This document shows positions 1,106-22,760 of a stretch of 33,362 nt of DNA, one piece after another. The stretch comes from a virus, in the IMG/VR virus record IMGVR_UViG_3300046723_000510, positions 1-33,362 of that record. One strand, 5' to 3'. The notes beneath the pieces were generated by a model that saw only the letters and a program-made list of their open reading frames with translations, did no database searches and was not told the DNA's origin. The position numbers and the translations under genes are program-made. Positions within the stretch are counted from its first letter, which is position 1. Each line of letters opens with the position of its first letter.

Positions 1106-1570
1106 TTATGTGTTTAGGGGTTCCTCGGTCTCGACCTGGCAATCGCACGTGAGCATGAGCATCGCCTGCCCCGACTGCGGCCGGACAATGACCGACTCGC
1201 CAGATGCGAGAGTCGAGTCATTCGCAACCCCTCCGAGGGAGCGGTCTGACTCGAGCGCGCTAACCACCTTCGCGATGAGCGCGTCCTGTTCGTCTTGCGC
1301 GGCCTCGGGGTCTGACTTCAGGGCGACCCACACCCGCACGTACAACCTCCAAACCCACCGCCGGCCCATCAGCGGGTCGACAATCGGGCCTTGAACTTCG
1401 TCGCTGTCGAGCTTGGCGCGGACGAAGCCGCGCGTTTGCATCGTCAGCAAGGGAAGCGCCGGCGCCTGCGTCGGCTCATAGCCGAGCACGGTGAGCCCTT
1501 CCACGAGCTCGAAGTTCGTCGCGAGGCCTTCCTTGACCTCGGCGAGCGGGTTTTCGGTGAGCGTCGGCAT
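1106..1570 (-). CDS. Tail terminator-like (tail completion) protein
   Basis: A 154-residue protein starting MPTLTENPLAEVKEGL. The ATG at 1570 overlaps the TGA of the preceding gp10-like gene (TGATG), so the two are translationally coupled. In tailed phages a protein of about 130-160 residues directly before the tail tube gene is usually the tail terminator, which caps the tube and docks it to the head. The sequence contains beta-strand-like stretches (RWVWRLYVRVWVALKS; AMLMLTCDCQVETEE) in keeping with that fold, but no diagnostic motif. Function is assigned from position and size. Confidence 0.5.
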   Translation of the reverse strand: MPTLTENPLAEVKEGLATNFELVEGLTVLGYEPTQAPALPLLTMQTRGFVRAKLDSDEVQGPIVDPLMGRRWVWRLYVRVWVALKSDPEAAQDEQDALIAKVVSALESDRSLGGVANDSTLASGESVIVRPQSGQAMLMLTCDCQVETEEPLNT

Positions 1571-6659: not shown

Positions 6660-8753
6660 CTATTTCGGGACTTCTATGACGGGCAGACCAATCCGCGTGC
6701 AATTCGGGTGGCTGATCGGGTTGGCTTCGTATTCCTCGAGGGTCCACCGCGAACCGTTTGCGTCCGCGCACTCCTCGTCTTCGTCGCCGTCCATGATGTC
6801 GACGGACTCGATACCCGCCTCGCGCATAAGCCCCGCGCTCGACTGATTGAAGGTAACGGCGGCCTCGGTCCGAGCGATGCGCTCGGCCTGCCAGGTCGTG
6901 TACTCCTCGTAGACGCCCTTGATCCCCTTGATCGTCACGTCAGGCGCGCCGGCCTGCGTGGAGGTGAAGGTGCCGCCCTCGGCGATCTGCCGATAGGTGA
7001 GGCCGTGGGCGATGCCTTCGCGGACCTCCTCGAGCACCTCGTTCTTGACCCGGCCCGAGACCGAGGCGATGCCCTCGGGCCGGTTGGCGAGCGCTTTCAG
7101 GGTGCGCGCGATAAGCGACTCGCTCGCCGCCTGATCGACGGCCTCGGCGGTGATCTTGAAGGAGGCCAGCGCGAGCCCCTCTTGCATCGTCTCCACGACC
7201 TGATGGAAGTTGGCGGCGTCGTCTGACCATCCGTACTCGCTGAGCAGGCGCTCGAGCTCCGCGGCCTTTTCCTGCCCCTCCACGATGGAGAGAACCCGGT
7301 CGCGCTGCTCGGCGAAGTGCTTGACGATCTCCATTTTGCCGCGCTCGGAGAAGCGGGCTTTCGCCTCGAGGGCGTTGCGCAGCCACTCGGTGACGGTCGT
7401 CTTGGACTCGCGCAGCACCCACGACTCGAGGCGGTATCCGGGCCGCGCCTTCGGCACATTGACGCCGGGCTCTTCTTCGAGTTGCGGCGTCGGCGCGGCT
7501 TCGATGAGGTCGACAATCGGCCGCGATTTCGTCGGCATCCACAAGCTGTCGGCGCCGGCTTCTTCAATCGGATCGTCGCCGAGGTCGCCGCGGCCTTCGT
7601 TCGGCGTCTTGAGGCCGCCGGACACCTCTTTCGCGGCCCGTTCGGAGCGCCATCCTTCGGCCCGGGCGAGCGCCGGCACGACGGTCGTATCGAAGCGGAA
7701 GTCCTCGACGTCGGGATAGAAGGGCATCAGCGTGACTTTCGTCCACGTGGCGAAGAAGCCGAGCTTCGGCAGCATCGTGATCTTCCAGAAGATCGGCTCG
7801 GCATTCTCGAAGTTCGAGTAGGTGGCGCGGGTCATATCGCCGACCAGGACCGGCGGCACACCGAAGGCGGCGCATTGGCCCTCGCGGGCGAGCCGGCGCC
7901 CCTCGAGGTACTCGACGTCCTTTTGGGACTGCGTCAAGAGGGTGATGTCGGGATCGCCGCTGAGGATCGCGGCGCGATGGGCCCGGTCGACGCCCTTGAA
8001 CTCGGCCCATTCCTCCTTGTTGAGCTTGCGCTCTTCGGAGTCCATCTTGCCTTTGAAGCCGATGACCAGGTCCGGGCGGGCGGCGTTGCGGAAGAAGCGA
8101 TGGTCATAGCGGACGCCGAAGTACTCGCTGATGATGTCGTCTTTCGCGGCGCGAAGCGGGCTCATCCCGTAGAGGTCATCTTTCGGGTTTGCGTAGCGGC
8201 CGGCGACGACGATGCTCTTTTCGCCCTCGCCGCTGACCTTCGGGTTGTAGGGGTCGAGCGCGTCGAATTGCACGACGTCGACGCCGTTGACGTTCGGGTC
8301 GTAGCTGTAGCCCTCGATGGTGCCGCCCTCGCCGGGCTTGATCCGCACGAATTGCCCGCGCAGCGGGAAGAGTTGAGCGATGTCGCCGCCGCGCGAGGGC
8401 ACTATCTCCCAGAACCACTCGCCGATGACCTCGGCCCACTTGATCGTCCACTCGAAGAACATCAGCGCCGGGTCGCGCGGGCTCGGCCGGCGCAGGAGGT
8501 CGAGCATCTTGTGCTCTTCGATCCACTCGCCGCGGACCTTGACTTGCATCGGCACCTGCGTCGCCGAGCTCGAGATGAGGTTCACGCAACGGTTGACCCA
8601 CACCCGGTCGAAGTAGGCGTCGACCAACTCCTGCCGCGATTCGGGCTCATAGCGTTCGCCATAGGCGCCGGTCATTCCGTAGCCGTAGGTATCGGGAGTC
8701 GCCCCCCGCGGGCCCGACTTGCCGGTGAGGAAATCAAGGATGGCGCTACGCAA
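6660..8753 (-). CDS. Portal protein fused to a MuF-like head morphogenesis domain
   Basis: A 697-residue fusion. About the first 400 residues are an HK97/phage_portal-type protein (VNRCVNLISSSATQVPMQV; PLRGQFVRIKPG; FGVPPVLVGDMTRATYSNFE), forming the dodecameric DNA channel. The last 200 residues carry a MuF-like head morphogenesis domain: AERIARTEAAVTFNQSS and then MDGDEDEECADANG... ISHPNCTRIGLPV. The start chosen is TTG 8753 because a perfect AGGAGG lies six bases upstream, inside the end of the WbqC-like gene, whose TAG it overlaps. Upstream in-frame ATGs at 8792 and 8807 have no ribosome site. Portal-MuF fusions are known, but separate genes are the commoner arrangement. Confidence 0.85.
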   Translation of the reverse strand: MRSAILDFLTGKSGPRGATPDTYGYGMTGAYGERYEPESRQELVDAYFDRVWVNRCVNLISSSATQVPMQVKVRGEWIEEHKMLDLLRRPSPRDPALMFFEWTIKWAEVIGEWFWEIVPSRGGDIAQLFPLRGQFVRIKPGEGGTIEGYSYDPNVNGVDVVQFDALDPYNPKVSGEGEKSIVVAGRYANPKDDLYGMSPLRAAKDDIISEYFGVRYDHRFFRNAARPDLVIGFKGKMDSEERKLNKEEWAEFKGVDRAHRAAILSGDPDITLLTQSQKDVEYLEGRRLAREGQCAAFGVPPVLVGDMTRATYSNFENAEPIFWKITMLPKLGFFATWTKVTLMPFYPDVEDFRFDTTVVPALARAEGWRSERAAKEVSGGLKTPNEGRGDLGDDPIEEAGADSLWMPTKSRPIVDLIEAAPTPQLEEEPGVNVPKARPGYRLESWVLRESKTTVTEWLRNALEAKARFSERGKMEIVKHFAEQRDRVLSIVEGQEKAAELERLLSEYGWSDDAANFHQVVETMQEGLALASFKITAEAVDQAASESLIARTLKALANRPEGIASVSGRVKNEVLEEVREGIAHGLTYRQIAEGGTFTSTQAGAPDVTIKGIKGVYEEYTTWQAERIARTEAAVTFNQSSAGLMREAGIESVDIMDGDEDEECADANGSRWTLEEYEANPISHPNCTRIGLPVIEVPK

Positions 8754-9393
8754 CGGAGACCTCCTGTTCGGGACGGGTCGGAAGAGCGCCATCGGTGAAG
8801 ACCGCATCGATGACGGATGGATTCTCGCCGGCAAACCGGAAGAAGAGAAGGTCGATGCCGCCGGCCTCGAAGACCTCGGCGTCGAGCCGGGCGCCGGGCC
8901 CGGTCAGGTAGGCCGAGCCGCCGACTGCCTGCACCATGTGGACGATCCTCGAGGAGACCGAGCCGCGAGGCGTCGGCGCGAGTTGGGATTGGCGGAACTC
9001 GCGCGTCCCGAAGCCGAGGCGGCCGATGATCCACTCGATGAGCTCGAGGTTGAGGTCGACCAGGGGCGAGCCGTGGAAGGCGAGCTCGCCGGCGAGGATG
9101 TCGAAGATGTAGGGGTCGAAGTGCTCGGCGCCGGCGTAGCGCTCGCGCAGGATGTTGACGTGCTCACCCTGCCAGTCCTCGCCGGCGATGGTGACCTCGC
9201 GGATCGGCGTCAGGTGGTCGCGCCGGTCGACGGGCACCGTGAGCCACTCGCCGCGGGGAAGCTGGTTGCGGTTGACGTAACCGGGCGTGGTGAAGCGAAC
9301 GTCATCGAGCCACACGACCGCATCGGCCCGGGCGATCTTCGAGACCACACTTACTCCCGGTAGATACCCCGGCTGATGGGCGGTGACGATCAT
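8746..9393 (-). CDS. WbqC-like family protein
   Basis: A 215-residue protein. Its start, MIVTAHQPGYLPGVS... KIARADAVVWLDDVRF... YVNRNQL, matches the WbqC-like family pattern (HQPxYLPw, Kixx-aDxfVxlDdvqf, nRnxi). The family is common in bacterial surface-polysaccharide clusters and its biochemistry is poorly defined. The length is near the family's usual 210-240. ATG 9393 overlaps the preceding TGA (ATGA), and the gene's end contains the ribosome site of the portal gene, so it is translationally locked into the morphogenesis operon. A GTG at 9405 is possible but its AAGG is too close. Why a phage makes it together with its portal is unknown. Confidence 0.75.
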   Translation of the reverse strand: MIVTAHQPGYLPGVSVVSKIARADAVVWLDDVRFTTPGYVNRNQLPRGEWLTVPVDRRDHLTPIREVTIAGEDWQGEHVNILRERYAGAEHFDPYIFDILAGELAFHGSPLVDLNLELIEWIIGRLGFGTREFRQSQLAPTPRGSVSSRIVHMVQAVGGSAYLTGPGARLDAEVFEAGGIDLLFFRFAGENPSVIDAVFTDGALPTRPEQEVSVA

Positions 9394-9575
9394 TGCGAGA
9401 GCCACCCTTCACCGAGCGCGACGAAGAACAGGGCCCACGCCGCGGCGCAGACGGCGAGGGCGCCGAGCCAGAGAAGAATTACCTCAACCCTTAGGCCCCC
9501 AGCGGATCGCCCTCTTCGGTTTCGGCGCCGGCTTCGGTGTGCGCTTCCGAGAGGGCTTTCGTCGCTTGCCGTCAT
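9390..9575 (-). CDS. Small single-span membrane protein (start uncertain)
   Basis: The C-terminal 30 residues form one strong membrane segment (ILLWLGALAVCAAAWALFFVAL) followed by GEGWLSQ. The ATG at 9575 would make 61 residues but overlaps the previous gene by about 90 bases and has no ribosome site. The convincing part begins near 9485. An ATT at 9479 with AAGGG upstream could be a rare start. The stop TGA overlaps the WbqC-like ATG. A small phage membrane peptide of unknown role. Confidence 0.45.
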   Translation of the reverse strand: MTASDESPLGSAHRSRRRNRRGRSAGGLRVEVILLWLGALAVCAAAWALFFVALGEGWLSQ

Positions 9576-9720
9576 CGGCGTCGTTCCAGGGAATCCGCCG
9601 CTGCTTCTTCACCTTCCCGCAAGCGCAAGTCGACCTTGAGGGTTGATCGAAGTCGATCTGCCAGACGTGATTGTGCGGCCCCGTAGATACCGAGAGCCTA
9701 GCCTGCCCGTCAGCGGTCAT
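9484..9720 (-). CDS. Small basic protein, possibly zinc-binding
   Basis: A 78-residue protein starting MTADGQARLSVS. It contains H-N-H and a short C-x-C (STCACGKVKKQ) followed by a very basic tail rich in Lys, Arg and Pro (KRTPKPAPKPKRA). ATG 9720 directly follows the TAA of the gene before it. Composition suggests nucleic-acid contact, but no family was recognised. It belongs to the run of micro-genes ahead of the portal. Confidence 0.5.
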   Translation of the reverse strand: MTADGQARLSVSTGPHNHVWQIDFDQPSRSTCACGKVKKQRRIPWNDADDGKRRKPSRKRTPKPAPKPKRAIRWGPKG

Positions 9721-10011
9721 TTACGCGACGCGGCGGGCGTTCTGCTTCGCGCGGAATGTGGCGAGGCGCTCGAGCGGCTTCGCGAGCTCGTCTAGAAGTT
9801 CCTGATGTGCCTGCTCGCCGGCGAGATTCTCGCGTGCGATCCGATCATGTTCGGTGCATAGCCAGATGACCTCGCCGTCCGGTCCCTCGTGGCGAGCGAG
9901 GGCGAGACTTAGGCAGCCTCGAGCCCGGCATGCGCAGGCCGGCTTCCGCGGCGCCGCCTTCGCCGTCGGTTCCGGCTCCGGTATCCGCCGCTTCTTCTTG
10001 CCCTTCGCCAT
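9721..10011 (-). CDS. Small Cys/His-rich protein, possible zinc finger
   Basis: A 96-residue protein. A basic N-terminus (MAKGKKKRRIPEPEPTAK) is followed by CACRARGC and then WLCTEHD, which together could bind one zinc ion. A helical C-terminal half (AHQELLDELAKPLERLATFRAKQ) follows. A finger plus helix of this size is common among phage DNA-contacting small proteins. ATG 10011. It ends one base before the next gene starts. Confidence 0.6.
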   Translation of the reverse strand: MAKGKKKRRIPEPEPTAKAAPRKPACACRARGCLSLALARHEGPDGEVIWLCTEHDRIARENLAGEQAHQELLDELAKPLERLATFRAKQNARRVA

Positions 10012-10087
10012 CGCGAATCAGCGCCAGGAGGCGCGGGTCGGCGAGCCCGGGATAGGCCTCATAGATGTCACGAAGCGACGCCGGCAT
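9845..10087 (-). CDS. Possible small overlapping gene
   Basis: An 80-residue frame starting MPASLRDIYEAYPGLADPRLLAL. The first 27 residues fill the space between the upstream membrane peptide and the ATG at 10011 and read like protein. The remainder overlaps the Cys/His-rich gene in another frame and looks like shadow sequence. It overlaps the preceding gene by 20 bases. Either it is a real, partly overlapping small gene, or the spacer simply happens to be open. Confidence 0.3.
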   Translation of the reverse strand: MPASLRDIYEAYPGLADPRLLALIRDGEGQEEAADTGAGTDGEGGAAEAGLRMPGSRLPKSRPRSPRGTGRRGHLAMHRT

Positions 10088-10250
10088 AGGCGATGACTAC
10101 CCCAAACCCGATAGCGAGTGAACATCCGATGACCACCTCGACACGCATCGGCCGCCGCGGCGCCCGGATCGCAAGGCGCCACTCGTCGCCGAGCGCGACG
10201 GCCGCGGCGACGGCGATTGCAATTCCGAGTCCGAGTAGGGCGAGCATCAT
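10068..10250 (-). CDS. Small two-span membrane protein
   Basis: A 60-residue protein with two hydrophobic segments, about 2-21 (LALLGLGIAIAVAAAVAL) and 39-57 (VVIGCSLAIGFGVVIAYAG), joined by a basic loop (RLAIRAPRRPMR). Two consecutive ATGs lie at 10250 and 10247; CCACGAAAGG upstream, a variant of the phage's start-associated leader, suits the second. Size and topology resemble small holin- or superinfection-exclusion-type peptides, but it is far from the lysis genes and no family was recognised. Confidence 0.6.
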   Translation of the reverse strand: MMLALLGLGIAIAVAAAVALGDEWRLAIRAPRRPMRVEVVIGCSLAIGFGVVIAYAGVAS

Positions 10251-10268
10251 GTGCCTTTCGTGGTGGAG

Positions 10269-10284
10269 CGTTCCACGTGGAACG
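10269..10284. promoter_or_regulatory. 16-bp perfect palindrome matching the parS core
   Basis: CGTTCCACGTGGAACG is perfectly palindromic. Its inner 14 bases match the widely conserved bacterial parS pattern GTTnCACGTGnAAC at every defined position; the outermost pair is C/G instead of T/A. It lies between a hairpin (10297-10335) and the leader of the small membrane protein at 10250. It could be a ParB-binding site borrowed from the host or an operator. No ParA or ParB gene is visible in the window. Confidence 0.6.
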
Positions 10285-10296
10285 GTAAGGGGAGGT

Positions 10297-10335
10297 GCGG
10301 CCGGATCGCCTACCGCCCGCAGGCGACCCGGCCGC
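10297..10335 (-). terminator. Strong hairpin, terminator-like
   Basis: Positions 10297-10311 pair with 10321-10335 over 15 positions with a single mismatch (G-U capable on the minus-strand transcript) and a 9-nt loop. It follows the C-terminal DUF2303 piece that ends at 10356 and precedes the next gene's leader. There is no T-run, so termination is inferred from stem strength and place. Confidence 0.5.
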
Positions 10336-10355
10336 TATAAGGCTCGACTTGAGGC

Positions 10356-10525
10356 TTACGCCCCGGTGCCGGGTGTGCCGCGGTAGACGAGCTCGTGCAT
10401 TTCCGCGAGGCGCTCGGCGATGCCGTCGAGCACGACCCGCACCGCCCGGTCGGGCCGGTCGAGCTTGTAGCCGAGGCCGACCTTGCCGCCGTTCATCCGC
10501 ACCCGGAAGCGCGCGGTGGCACCCG
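10356..10525 (-). pseudogene. C-terminal fragment of a DUF2303 (YfdQ-like) protein
   Basis: The minus-strand reading ATARFRVRMNGGKVGLGYKL and on to VVLDGIAERLAEMHELVYRG looks like the conserved C-terminus of DUF2303 proteins, whose last strands read roughly aRfRyR...G.l.lgYkLdRPd. The rest of the same protein is encoded on the opposite strand starting at 10574. The fragment's apparent GTG starts (10553 and others) have no ribosome site, because upstream of about 10526 the sequence belongs to something else. The simplest explanation is that an inversion separated this piece from its gene. Confidence 0.65.
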
Positions 10526-10561
10526 CTGCCCGACGACGAGTCACCACGACCACTCAACTAG
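10523..10561 (+). pseudogene. Displaced C-terminal codons of the gene upstream of DUF2303
   Basis: Read on the plus strand, this short stretch gives PLPDDESPRPLN and then TAG, and the TAG overlaps AGGAGG, the ribosome site of the DUF2303 start at 10574. That is the stop/Shine-Dalgarno overlap used elsewhere in this genome. It therefore looks like the true end of the gene whose body now lies on the minus strand at 11303-11656. The inference depends on the inversion model. Confidence 0.45.
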
Positions 10562-10573
10562 GAGGAACCACGA

Positions 10574-11302
10574 ATGCCTGAGCACGACGAGACAGCGCCC
10601 GATTTCAAACCCCTTGAGGCCGAGCTCGGTGCCATCCATGCCGGCGACGCGGCCATCATCCAAACCGCGCAAGAGGCCGTCGCGCCGAAGGAGCTCAACG
10701 TCACCGAGCTCTACGCAGTCCGCGGCGAGGATGGCGCCCTCGAGGTGCTCGACCTCGAGCGTTACCGAGTGCAACCCGACCGGGCCCGCTGCACCGTGCG
10801 GCCCGGAACGGTCGACGCCCTCTCGGCCTACGTCAAGCGCCACGGCATCGAGGGGCATACCTCGGTGTGGGTTGCGCCGGACGCCGGCAGGATCATCGCC
10901 GTCATCGATGAGCACGGCGCCGACGCCGTCGCCGAGGCGCGCTTTCGACAGCACCGCGCCGAGCTCGAGCTCCTGGTCACGCCCGAGTGGGAGTTCTGGC
11001 TCAAGCGCGACGGCGAGCTCATGGATCAGCAGGCCTTCGCCGAACACATCGAGGAGGGTCTTGACGACATCCGCGAGCCGGACGGCGCCACGATGCTCGA
11101 GGTCGCGCAGTCGATCCACGGCACGAACAAAGCGACCTTCCGCTCGGGCTACAAGCTCGAGAACGGCGAGCTCAAGTTCGGCTACGACGAGGACGTCAAC
11201 ATCCGCGCCGGCGACCCGCAGAAGCACGGCGAGCTCGCCATCCCGCACGAACTCAAACTCGCGGTCGCGCCGTTCATCGGCGAGCCCGCCTTCGAGCTGC
11301 AC
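10574..11302 (+). pseudogene. DUF2303 (YfdQ-like) protein, N-terminal and central part
   Basis: From ATG 10574 about 242 residues read as a DUF2303 protein: LDLERYRVQPDRARCTVRPGTVDALSAYV, VAPDAGRIIAVIDEHG, then LLVTPEWEFWLKRDGELMDQQAFAEHIEEGL and PFIGEPAFEL. Family function is unknown; the E. coli prophage member is YfdQ. After Leu at 11299 the frame continues as antisense of the neighbouring gene (to 11686), so the native C-terminus is missing here and sits on the minus strand at 10356-10525. AGGAGG precedes the ATG. This is the only plus-strand gene in the 43-21870 block. Confidence 0.7.
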
Positions 11303-11656
11303 CGGCATCGATGTCTGATTCGGGTTGCGACGGGTGAGGTTGCCCTTGCCGTCGGTGAAGAACATCGAGCTCTGCTTGTCGACCGGCGGTTTCGCCTTCA
11401 CCTCGTCGGTGATGAAGACGGCCGCCTGCCCCTTGCCGGCCGGGTTGATCTTCAGCGTCAGCGTCAGCGTGCCCGACTTGTTGAGGTCGATGACGGCCTG
11501 CGAGATGTTCGCGAGCTCGTCGGAGAGCTCGGCGTGCAAGCTGCCCTGCCGCTGTTCCTGCAAGACCGCGGCGAATGGCCGGCGCTCGGGCCCCTCGGGA
11601 GGTTGGCCGTCGCCAGGTTGCTCGGGCGGATCGGGAACGGCGGTCGGCTTCGTCAT
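11303..11656 (-). pseudogene. Conserved phage protein partnered with DUF2303, 3-prime end displaced
   Basis: From ATG 11656 about 118 native residues are readable: RPFAAVLQEQRQGSLHAELSDELANISQAVIDLNKSG, then LTLTLKINPAGKG and DEVKAKPPVDKQSSMFFTDGKGNL TRRNPNQ. This is a widespread small phage protein of unknown function, normally encoded just before DUF2303. After codon MPV (near 11300) the frame runs antisense through the DUF2303 piece and stops only at 10541, giving a nominal 371 residues. Its natural ending appears to be at 10523-10561 on the other strand. The leader contains ACGACGACGAAGGAG. Confidence 0.65.
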
Positions 11657-11726
11657 CGTGAGGGCTCCTTCGTCGTCGTGGTCTAGATCGCGCTCGCGAC
11701 CCTACACCCCTCGGCGGTCGAAGGAG

Positions 11727-11884
11727 TTATCCACAAGCGCGGGTGTGGATAACTACGGATGCGGTGTGGAAACCGTGGCCGGCGCGGGCGTGGCCGGACT
11801 TGTCCACACCTTTCCACAACCGTTTCAACAGGCGGTTTTCGGCGCCGGCGCGGGCGAAACCCCGCCTTCCGCGACTTCTCCACA
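11727..11884. other. DnaA-box cluster, candidate replication origin
   Basis: In the largest spacer of the small-gene block (11657-11913) there are two perfect TTATCCACA boxes (11727-11735 plus; 11744-11752 minus), TTGTCCACA at 11800-11808, TTCTCCACA at 11876-11884 and two weaker boxes (minus 11765-11773, GTTTCCACA; plus 11810-11818, CTTTCCACA). TTGTCCACA/TTATCCACA-type 9-mers are the actinobacterial DnaA consensus. A less GC-rich stretch (CTACTACTACTCGAATAGAT) adjoins at about 11888-11912. No protein-coding frame is convincing here. An origin read by host DnaA is the best interpretation. Confidence 0.55.
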
Positions 11885-11913
11885 AGCCCTACTACTACTC
11901 GAATAGATAGAAG

Positions 11914-12177
11914 CTAGGAGAGGTCTCGGGAAACGGTGACGATGAGATGCTGCGCGTTGGGCGAGTCGCCGGCGTCCTCGTGCCCTTCGATGGTGACGAG
12001 CTTGTCGCCGGCGATGCCCTCGGCCGCGGCGATGGCGGCCTTGACGCCGGCGTCGAGTTGCTTCTGCGGGATGTGGCCGGTCTCGGTCTCCTCATCGAAG
12101 GCGACCTCGGCGTCCTCGCGGCCGAAGCCCGTCCACTTGCCGCCGGCCTTCACCTTCTTCTCGATGCGCCAGTTCAT
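11914..12177 (-). CDS. Small phage protein, unknown function
   Basis: An 87-residue acidic protein starting MNWRIEKKVKAGGKWTGFG. The middle (KQLDAGVKAAIAAAEGIAGDKLVTIEGHEDAG) alternates helix and strand and the end (HLIVTVSRDLS) is a strand, a small alpha/beta pattern. ATG 12177 overlaps the TGA of the gene before it (TGATG). It is the last gene before the putative origin. No family recognised. Confidence 0.65.
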   Translation of the reverse strand: MNWRIEKKVKAGGKWTGFGREDAEVAFDEETETGHIPQKQLDAGVKAAIAAAEGIAGDKLVTIEGHEDAGDSPNAQHLIVTVSRDLS

Positions 12178-12680
12178 CAGCCGAGCATCGCAAGCTGATC
12201 GGATCTATTCGGCGGCGGGAAACCGGCCATGAGCTCACCGTAGTCGAAGCGCTTGCCGAGGCAGTAGCGGATCCCGACCAGGTCGCCGGCGGTGCCGAGG
12301 ACGTCGCCGTCGTAGATCAGCGCGTACTTCGGCACCTGCGCCGCGCCGCGGACGAACGCGACGCCGCGGTCAGTCACGCGCCAGTAGCCCGCGCGACCGC
12401 CGTCAGGGCGCCGCACGAGCTCCTCCTCGAGCAAGCCCCACCACGAAAGCTGCGAGGCCTCGTGGCTGTCGCAGGGAAGCGAGGGCGTGTGGATGAAGCC
12501 GCGTGCCAGGTCGGCGCGGTAGGCCTCGATGAGGGTGCGCGCCATGCCGGCGTTGATCGTGCGGCGGTAGACCTTCGCGAGTTGGCCGCAGCACGGACAT
12601 TCGACGCCCTCGTCGCGGTTCATTCGTACGTACTCGCGCGCCTCGAGCAGCGACGAGCCGGTCGGGTGTGGCGCCGCCAT
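12177..12680 (-). CDS. Zinc-ribbon and winged-helix-like phage protein
   Basis: A 167-residue protein. CPCCGQLAKVYRRTINAGMARTLIEAY near residue 28 gives a zinc-knuckle-like CxCC followed by a helix. LSWWGLLEEELVRRP... GYWRVTDRGVAFVRG resembles a winged-helix wing (the WRVTdrG..Fv.G pattern typical of MarR-like or phage HTH proteins). A C-terminal KYALIYDGDVLG strand follows. It probably binds nucleic acid; the family is widespread in phages and functionally unassigned. TGATG overlaps occur at both ends. Confidence 0.65.
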   Translation of the reverse strand: MAAPHPTGSSLLEAREYVRMNRDEGVECPCCGQLAKVYRRTINAGMARTLIEAYRADLARGFIHTPSLPCDSHEASQLSWWGLLEEELVRRPDGGRAGYWRVTDRGVAFVRGAAQVPKYALIYDGDVLGTAGDLVGIRYCLGKRFDYGELMAGFPPPNRSDQLAMLG

Positions 12681-21929: not shown

Positions 21930-21959
21930 TTGACAGGTTAGGGTCTTTTGTGGTTTAAT
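21930..21959 (+). promoter_or_regulatory. Sigma70-type promoter for the rightward block
   Basis: TTGACA at 21930-21935 and TTTAAT at 21954-21959, separated by 18 bases, in a region much less GC-rich than its surroundings. Transcription would begin near 21966, giving a leader of about 25 bases before ATG 21990. This is the clearest promoter in the window and sits in the divergent spacer between terS and the methyltransferase. Confidence 0.75.
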
Positions 21960-21989
21960 AGACCTATGACCACGACGAAGGGAGACACG

Positions 21990-22760
21990 ATGGATAGCAC
22001 GGATCAGATGGGAACCGACCGCACGACAGACGCGAGGGAGTTGACTGCCGCCCCGATTCTCCTCGATGCCTTCTGCGGCGCCGGTGGCGCGGGAGAGGGG
22101 TACCGCCGCTCAGGTTTCGACGTCATCGGCGTCGACCACAAGCGCCAGCCTAACTATCCCTTTCAGATTTTCTATGGCGACGTGATCGAGATTCTCGGCG
22201 CAATTCTCGATGGGAGGTGGGTAGAGCGATGGGGATTGCCGATGCCACAAGGCATCCATGCCTCGCCCCCATGCCAGGCGCACTCGGACCTTCGCCACCG
22301 GACGGGCCTCGAGTACCCCGAACTCGTCGCGCCAGTCCGCGAGCTCCTCGAAGAGACCGGACTGCCGTGGATCATCGAGAACGTGGAGGGCGCTCCGCTC
22401 CGCGACCCGGTCACTCTCTGCGGCACGATGTTCCCCGGCTTGCGAGTGCTTCGCCATCGGCTCTTCGAGTCGAACTTCCCGCTCGAGACGCCCGCGCATC
22501 CAACCGAGCCGCACCCCCCGGTCTTCACGACCGACAAACGGAAATCGCATTACGGCAAGCTCGATCAGGACATCTCATTCGTGTCGGTCACCGGCGGCGG
22601 GAACTGCTCGATTGCGAACGCACGCTCGGCAATGGGCATTGAGTGGATGACGAAGCCCGAGCTCAACGAGGCGATTCCCCCGGCCTACACCGAGTATCTC
22701 GGCCGTCAGCTTCTCTCACACATTGAATCCACCACGACGAAAGGAGCACCACGACCATGA
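21990..22760 (+). CDS. DNA (cytosine-5) methyltransferase
   Basis: A 256-residue protein. Motif I is LLDAFCGAGGAGEGY (residues 24-38), motif IV is ASPPCQ with catalytic Cys95, and motif VI is PWIIENVEG (about 127-134). A conserved end, AMGIEWMTKPELNEAIPPAY, is typical of phage C5 enzymes. It is short: the target-recognition region is small. Host defence evasion or regulation is inferred. No endonuclease partner is nearby, so it is an orphan. ATG 21990 is preferred to the ATGs at 21948 and 21966 because GGGAG precedes it and the promoter would start at about 21966. Confidence 0.88.
   Translation: MDSTDQMGTDRTTDARELTAAPILLDAFCGAGGAGEGYRRSGFDVIGVDHKRQPNYPFQIFYGDVIEILGAILDGRWVERWGLPMPQGIHASPPCQAHSDLRHRTGLEYPELVAPVRELLEETGLPWIIENVEGAPLRDPVTLCGTMFPGLRVLRHRLFESNFPLETPAHPTEPHPPVFTTDKRKSHYGKLDQDISFVSVTGGGNCSIANARSAMGIEWMTKPELNEAIPPAYTEYLGRQLLSHIESTTTKGAPRP

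Follow-up and report, generated by a model that had tools for sequence, protein, structure and literature searches.

We find that two adjacent phage genes, a DUF2303 gene and its usual upstream partner phrog_204, are each divided between the two strands of the window, by which we mean the whole 33362-base stretch of DNA, from an uncultured bacterial virus, that was analysed. The split arrangement is confirmed as sequence, and it is quite probably the product of an illegitimate inversion that happened recently, spanned about 782 bases, split both genes and left a small net change in length at a junction. The rearrangement itself is of an ordinary kind, one small inversion breaking two genes; if it is real, it amounts to a natural knock-out, in that this phage population manages without two genes that are present and collinear in all 111 relatives examined. 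Coordinates are collected in Table 1.

Table 1 Features of the divided gene pair and its surroundings; positions are those of the window unless a relative is named
Feature	Position	Strand	Basis or remark
Virus record IMGVR_UViG_3300046723_000510	33362 bases		IMG/VR class linear; GC 0.668
DUF2303 C-terminal 53 codons and stop, outside the inversion	10356..10517	-	PF10065, phrog_210, relatives' profile
CGGTG, left junction	10514..10518	+	inverted match to right junction, offset by one base
Inverted segment, about 782 bases	10518..11299		DUF2303 piece boundaries in relatives' profile; AT skew
Putative phrog_204 3' end, inside inverted segment	10523..10561	+	position ahead of DUF2303 ATG, with L020 and L021 for comparison; too short for similarity
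New 371-codon frame: phrog_204 plus DUF2303 antisense	10541..11656	-	open reading frame list; overlaps nearly all of the 370-codon frame
DUF2303 (PF10065, phrog_210) residues 1-242	10574..11299	+	start codon, AGGAGG upstream
New 370-codon frame: DUF2303 1-242 plus antisense tail	10574..11686	+	open reading frame list
phrog_204 gene, 5' part; usual upstream partner of DUF2303	11300..11656	-	phrog_204 profile match
CGGTG (CACCG on +), right junction	11300..11304	-	junction comparison
DnaA-box-like cluster: TTATCCACA x2 in inverted orientation, TTGTCCACA, TTTCCACA x2, TTCTCCACA	11727..11884		upstream of operon
Relatives' DnaA-box-like clusters	L020 about 2323-2420; L021 about 1355-1510		upstream of phrog_204-DUF2303 operon

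The N-terminal part of the DUF2303 protein matches PF10065 at E 3.8e-31 (108.8 bits, cut-off 26.6) and phrog_210 at E 7e-39. The C-terminal part is not in the same open frame; it lies on the opposite strand and, when scanned alone, matches PF10065 positions 221-268 at E 0.0015 and 18.2 bits, which is under the Pfam cut-off of 26.6, and phrog_210 positions 222-272 at E 8.3e-4. A third profile was made from 50 intact relatives (alignment A5), with start codons chosen by a simple rule under which one relative, L021, began 21 codons late. The N piece occupies positions 10-219 of this profile with one residue left over and the C piece positions 221-269, with no overlap, and the single position between them, 220, can be filled by the leftover residue, L242. 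Alone against the 50-relative profile the C piece gives E 9.4e-8 for a search space size of 100,000, and among the window's 595 stop-to-stop frames its frame reaches E 3.1e-10, while the next frame apart from both DUF2303 frames stands at E 6.5, so the C-terminal match exceeds chance. Since the two pieces do not overlap in the profile, together they make one protein. The initial annotation had proposed that a DUF2303 gene is split over opposite strands and that the minus-strand piece resembles the expected C-terminus; the searches of both fragments with all three profiles bear out both claims. The exact ends that it gave need correcting, as the N part stops at 11299 (L242) rather than 11302, and the C part begins at 10517 (the T of TARFRV).

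The small gene whose body the same annotation had placed on the minus strand proves to be phrog_204 (E 2.7e-22 over positions 18-113 of the 143-position profile), and the similarity does end near the right junction, at 11303-11306. The match to the phrog_204 family profile in relatives often ends at 107 of 122, slightly beyond the point where the match in the window ends, and this end alone is therefore weak evidence. The stop of the putative tail is 12 bases upstream of the DUF2303 ATG; the small gene stops 6 bases upstream of this ATG in L020 and 3 bases upstream in L021, beside GGAG in both, and phrog_204 C-terminal ends vary among relatives. The end of the phrog_204 similarity also bears on a reading that needs no inversion, namely that a second DUF2303 gene arrived on the plus strand and the old C-terminus was left behind on the minus strand. 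This would fit with pieces on opposite strands that were found through separate matches, but the pieces have no profile positions in common and lack none save 220, which L242 can fill, an outcome not expected from a chance arrival, and the phrog_204 similarity ends at the very junction where the DUF2303 pieces part. Given this complementarity we reject the explanation as scarcely credible.

Gene order was compared in a survey of 113 entries, comprising the window, its twin contig (L019, described below) and 111 relatives. Of these relatives, 6 come from phage records, 26 are genome loci and 79 are viral loci; the viral set was limited to the 80 best out of 277 stretches encoding a relative, of which 79 were counted, and some rows repeat one phage (e.g., L061 and L062). 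After the twin, the next DUF2303 relative among the matches listed has 51% protein identity. The pair, widespread yet poorly understood, is one of tailed phages and prophages, and both of its genes are recognizable by profile and adjacent in the window, as they are elsewhere. In 111/111 relatives, however, phrog_204 is followed by DUF2303 on one strand with the C-terminus in place, the DUF2303 match extending to profile position 263 or beyond of 285, whereas in the window the inversion cuts each gene. None of the 111 relatives has a flipped or split-strand form, which answers the question, raised by the initial annotation, of whether homologous phages have the split arrangement too; the loci were retrieved via peptides of the N part, so inverted forms were as findable as normal ones. 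The DUF2303 match falls in two stretches in eight relatives (L113-L118, L121 and L123), both stretches being on the same strand in each. One relative, L056 (1829-2155, 2911-3642), has a phrog_204-DUF2303 gap of about 700 bases (720 by match), the next widest of the 111 being 259.

The end of the N part at 11299 and the beginning of the C part at 10517 define the turned segment as about 10518-11299, and base composition agrees with this placement. AT skew on the plus strand is 0.209 in 10518-11299, compared with -0.108 in 9500-10517 and -0.267 in 11300-11656, so that the composition of the segment is that of its neighbours turned over. Elsewhere in 43-21870, 782-base stretches never reach 0.209 (19482 compared; highest 0.175; 9.5% above zero); the stretches compared exclude overlap with the segment but overlap one another and are thus not independent tests. 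The reversed skew, the complementary DUF2303 pieces and the order in the 111 relatives together support the earlier proposal that an inversion of some 0.78 kb cut the two genes. That proposal came with a frame count by which a clean flip could not restore both genes, and the count is correct: of 1681 break-point pairs near the junctions, 560 restore DUF2303, 560 restore the small gene and none restores both, from which it follows that length changed at a junction or that one of the assumed frames is wrong.

An illegitimate inversion would have reversed the phrog_204 3' end and the first 242 DUF2303 codons relative to the remainder of the operon and left a small indel at a junction, and the likely route would be break repair or a template switch, perhaps aided by short inverted microhomology of the bases CGGTG. 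These five bases are common to the two junctions one base out of register, a match equalled by 3.1% of 5000 random place pairs; compared in register, the junctions have no bases in common. As microhomology, CGGTG is a weak hint. There is no stop or frameshift within either DUF2303 piece, and for this reason the event looks recent.

A programmed, reversible switch that turns both genes on and off is very improbable. The segment resembles invertons, intragenic ones included, in being a short inverted stretch that alters coding capacity, and it sits inside an operon, as a switch might; only one orientation is seen among the contigs, and a single orientation in two contigs is not in itself enough to dismiss switching. 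Known invertons, as described in the excerpted text of PMC11892184, carry flanking inverted repeats of 10-40 bases. In contrast, perfect inverted repeats no more than 30 bases from the segment's ends reach 5 bases, a length that 97% of 300 random pairs equal or exceed, and allowing two mismatches raises the maximum to 11 bases, matched by 46% of random pairs. Neither PF00239 (resolvase) nor PF00589 (tyrosine integrase) is matched in the window or in the twin contig, both of which may be incomplete, and a host enzyme is possible; the search covered these two recombinase families and matched PF00239 in 11 and PF00589 in 14 of 14 control genomes. The window segment thus differs from invertons in that its ends lack inverted repeats, neither of the two recombinase families is matched and no orientation restores both genes, and no relative among the 111 carries the flipped form. 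On repeats, recombinases and frames we reject the switch, and the initial annotation was right not to rank a programmed invertase switch above an illegitimate event.

The main rival to a genuine inversion is an artefact of amplification or assembly, in which inverted chimeras from library preparation were built into contigs; this is unlikely, though appreciably less so than any of the other alternatives. Most chimeras that multiple displacement amplification produces are inverted joins: in the excerpted text of PMC1855051, 406/475 chimeras (85%) are inversions, mostly inverted joins with an intervening deletion, and the window's junctions resemble those described there in being inverted joins with few complementary bases. 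Undecayed DUF2303 pieces are also what an artefact would be expected to leave. Unlike the chimeras described in that excerpt, however, the window joins both ends with no part of DUF2303 missing, which would need two matching events, and the same joins occur in two contigs. The second, IMGVR_UViG_3300046529_001166 (41506 bases), has both junctions exactly and yet differs from the window at two other positions (2/33362), 14804 and 33349, the latter 13 bases from the window's end. An artefact common to both contigs is possible, but the twin makes the assembly error entertained by the initial annotation less likely, and we infer that the inversion is real DNA. Two exact junction patterns, which detect near-exact copies only, found no unflipped copy in viral_contigs, from which the records nearest the window may be absent.

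The consequences for the two proteins were considered with a structure model of L020, the best-scoring intact relative (mean pLDDT 85.5). Placed by sequence, the cut falls inside the model's strand 240-251; strand 254-261 and helix 264-283, which have pLDDT of about 94-97, lie beyond it and are lost. Near-invariant columns in the lost part are, in L020 numbering, A244, R247, Y248, R249, L255 and L261. As the cut interrupts a predicted beta strand and takes away a further strand and a helix that are both modelled with confidence, DUF2303 function is likely lost, and both genes are probably inactivated. The inversion does create two long open frames, and one could suppose that re-tailed products of 370 and 371 codons are made and used, which would make the arrangement functional, since both frames are open to their ends. 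A long open antisense frame under DUF2303 is nonetheless common, present in 53/75 relatives with GC of at least 0.62 and in 77/111 overall, so that the two new frames require no special explanation; the lost part, moreover, holds near-invariant columns, and such a form occurs in 0/111 relatives. We give this functional reading hardly any credence. No sigma-70-like promoter was found in 9500-12500, an absence that says little, as chance alone would yield no more than 0.2 and the search covered this one promoter type.

Upstream of the operon we find a cluster of sites that includes two exact copies of TTATCCACA, the DnaA-box consensus; the two copies, in inverted orientation, carry 11-base arms. 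All four window sites that match TTNTCCACA fall within the cluster, just upstream of phrog_204, where 0.29 are expected window-wide and 0/100 shuffles reach four. Likewise, 6/15 window copies of TCCACA, counted in both directions, lie in 11657-11900, with at most one per 244-base stretch starting outside 11400-12100. The two best-scoring relatives, L020 and L021 (51% and 44% identity), each have six TCCACA copies in the 300 bases that precede the phrog_204 match; the other 107 of the 109 relatives counted have none in 102 cases, one in 4 and two in 1, and L022 (45% identity) has no copy upstream of its phrog_204 match. Judged from sequence, the cluster might serve as an origin of replication, titrate DnaA or act as an operator. 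A DnaA-box-like cluster upstream of the DUF2303 operon in three related phages offers a testable link between an unexplained family and the control of DNA replication, and this side result may matter more than the rearrangement.

A connection to replication also emerges from the only solved DUF2303 relative found by sequence. The DUF2303 profile matches PDB 9o7m_C, named YfdQ protein, at E 2.2e-15; the entry contains 36 chains, which suggests that YfdQ forms a large assembly. YfdQ of the E. coli cryptic prophage belongs to the same DUF2303 family but is one protein, whereas the window's gene is split. Of 14 control genomes, E. coli alone matches DUF2303 and alone matches phrog_204, the latter match being, at a guess, YfdP. 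Among the matches listed from open-licence PubMed Central papers, none is on the YfdQ structure. A structure search with the L020 model gave no Foldseek match at E of 0.001 or lower and none with Z of 5 or higher, and 9o7m is absent among the matches listed, which is uninformative either way; for the phrog_204 profile, the best match to a solved structure has E 0.44 and is unconvincing. Within the cluster yfdQ-yfdR-yfdS-yfdT, YfdR is a DnaA-binding protein, and replication initiation is inhibited when the cluster is overexpressed, according to the excerpted text of PMC4776307. Because this E. coli cluster inhibits initiation when overexpressed, as that excerpt has it, and because the window's pair adjoins a DnaA-box-like cluster, one might regard the inversion as a selected off-switch of a replication-control module: it would make the pair two mutually antisense frames and so remove control from a phage that may be replicating here. 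We hold this to be improbable, and prefer the illegitimate inversion without such a role.

Elsewhere in the window, PHROG profile matches identify portal, head protease, major head protein and terminase genes, and the five proteins compared with NCBIfam have no match there. Near-identity searches with window positions 1-25000 returned, against phages, a sole match of 147 bases in 2 records of one Mycobacterium phage and, against plasmids, no match. A gene for a WbqC-like protein (PF08889, E 7e-33; 8749-9405, minus strand), which has no PHROG match, adjoins the portal gene, and a DNA methyltransferase gene (phrog_363, E 4.1e-36; 21948-22757, plus strand) lies near the point where the AT skew changes sign.
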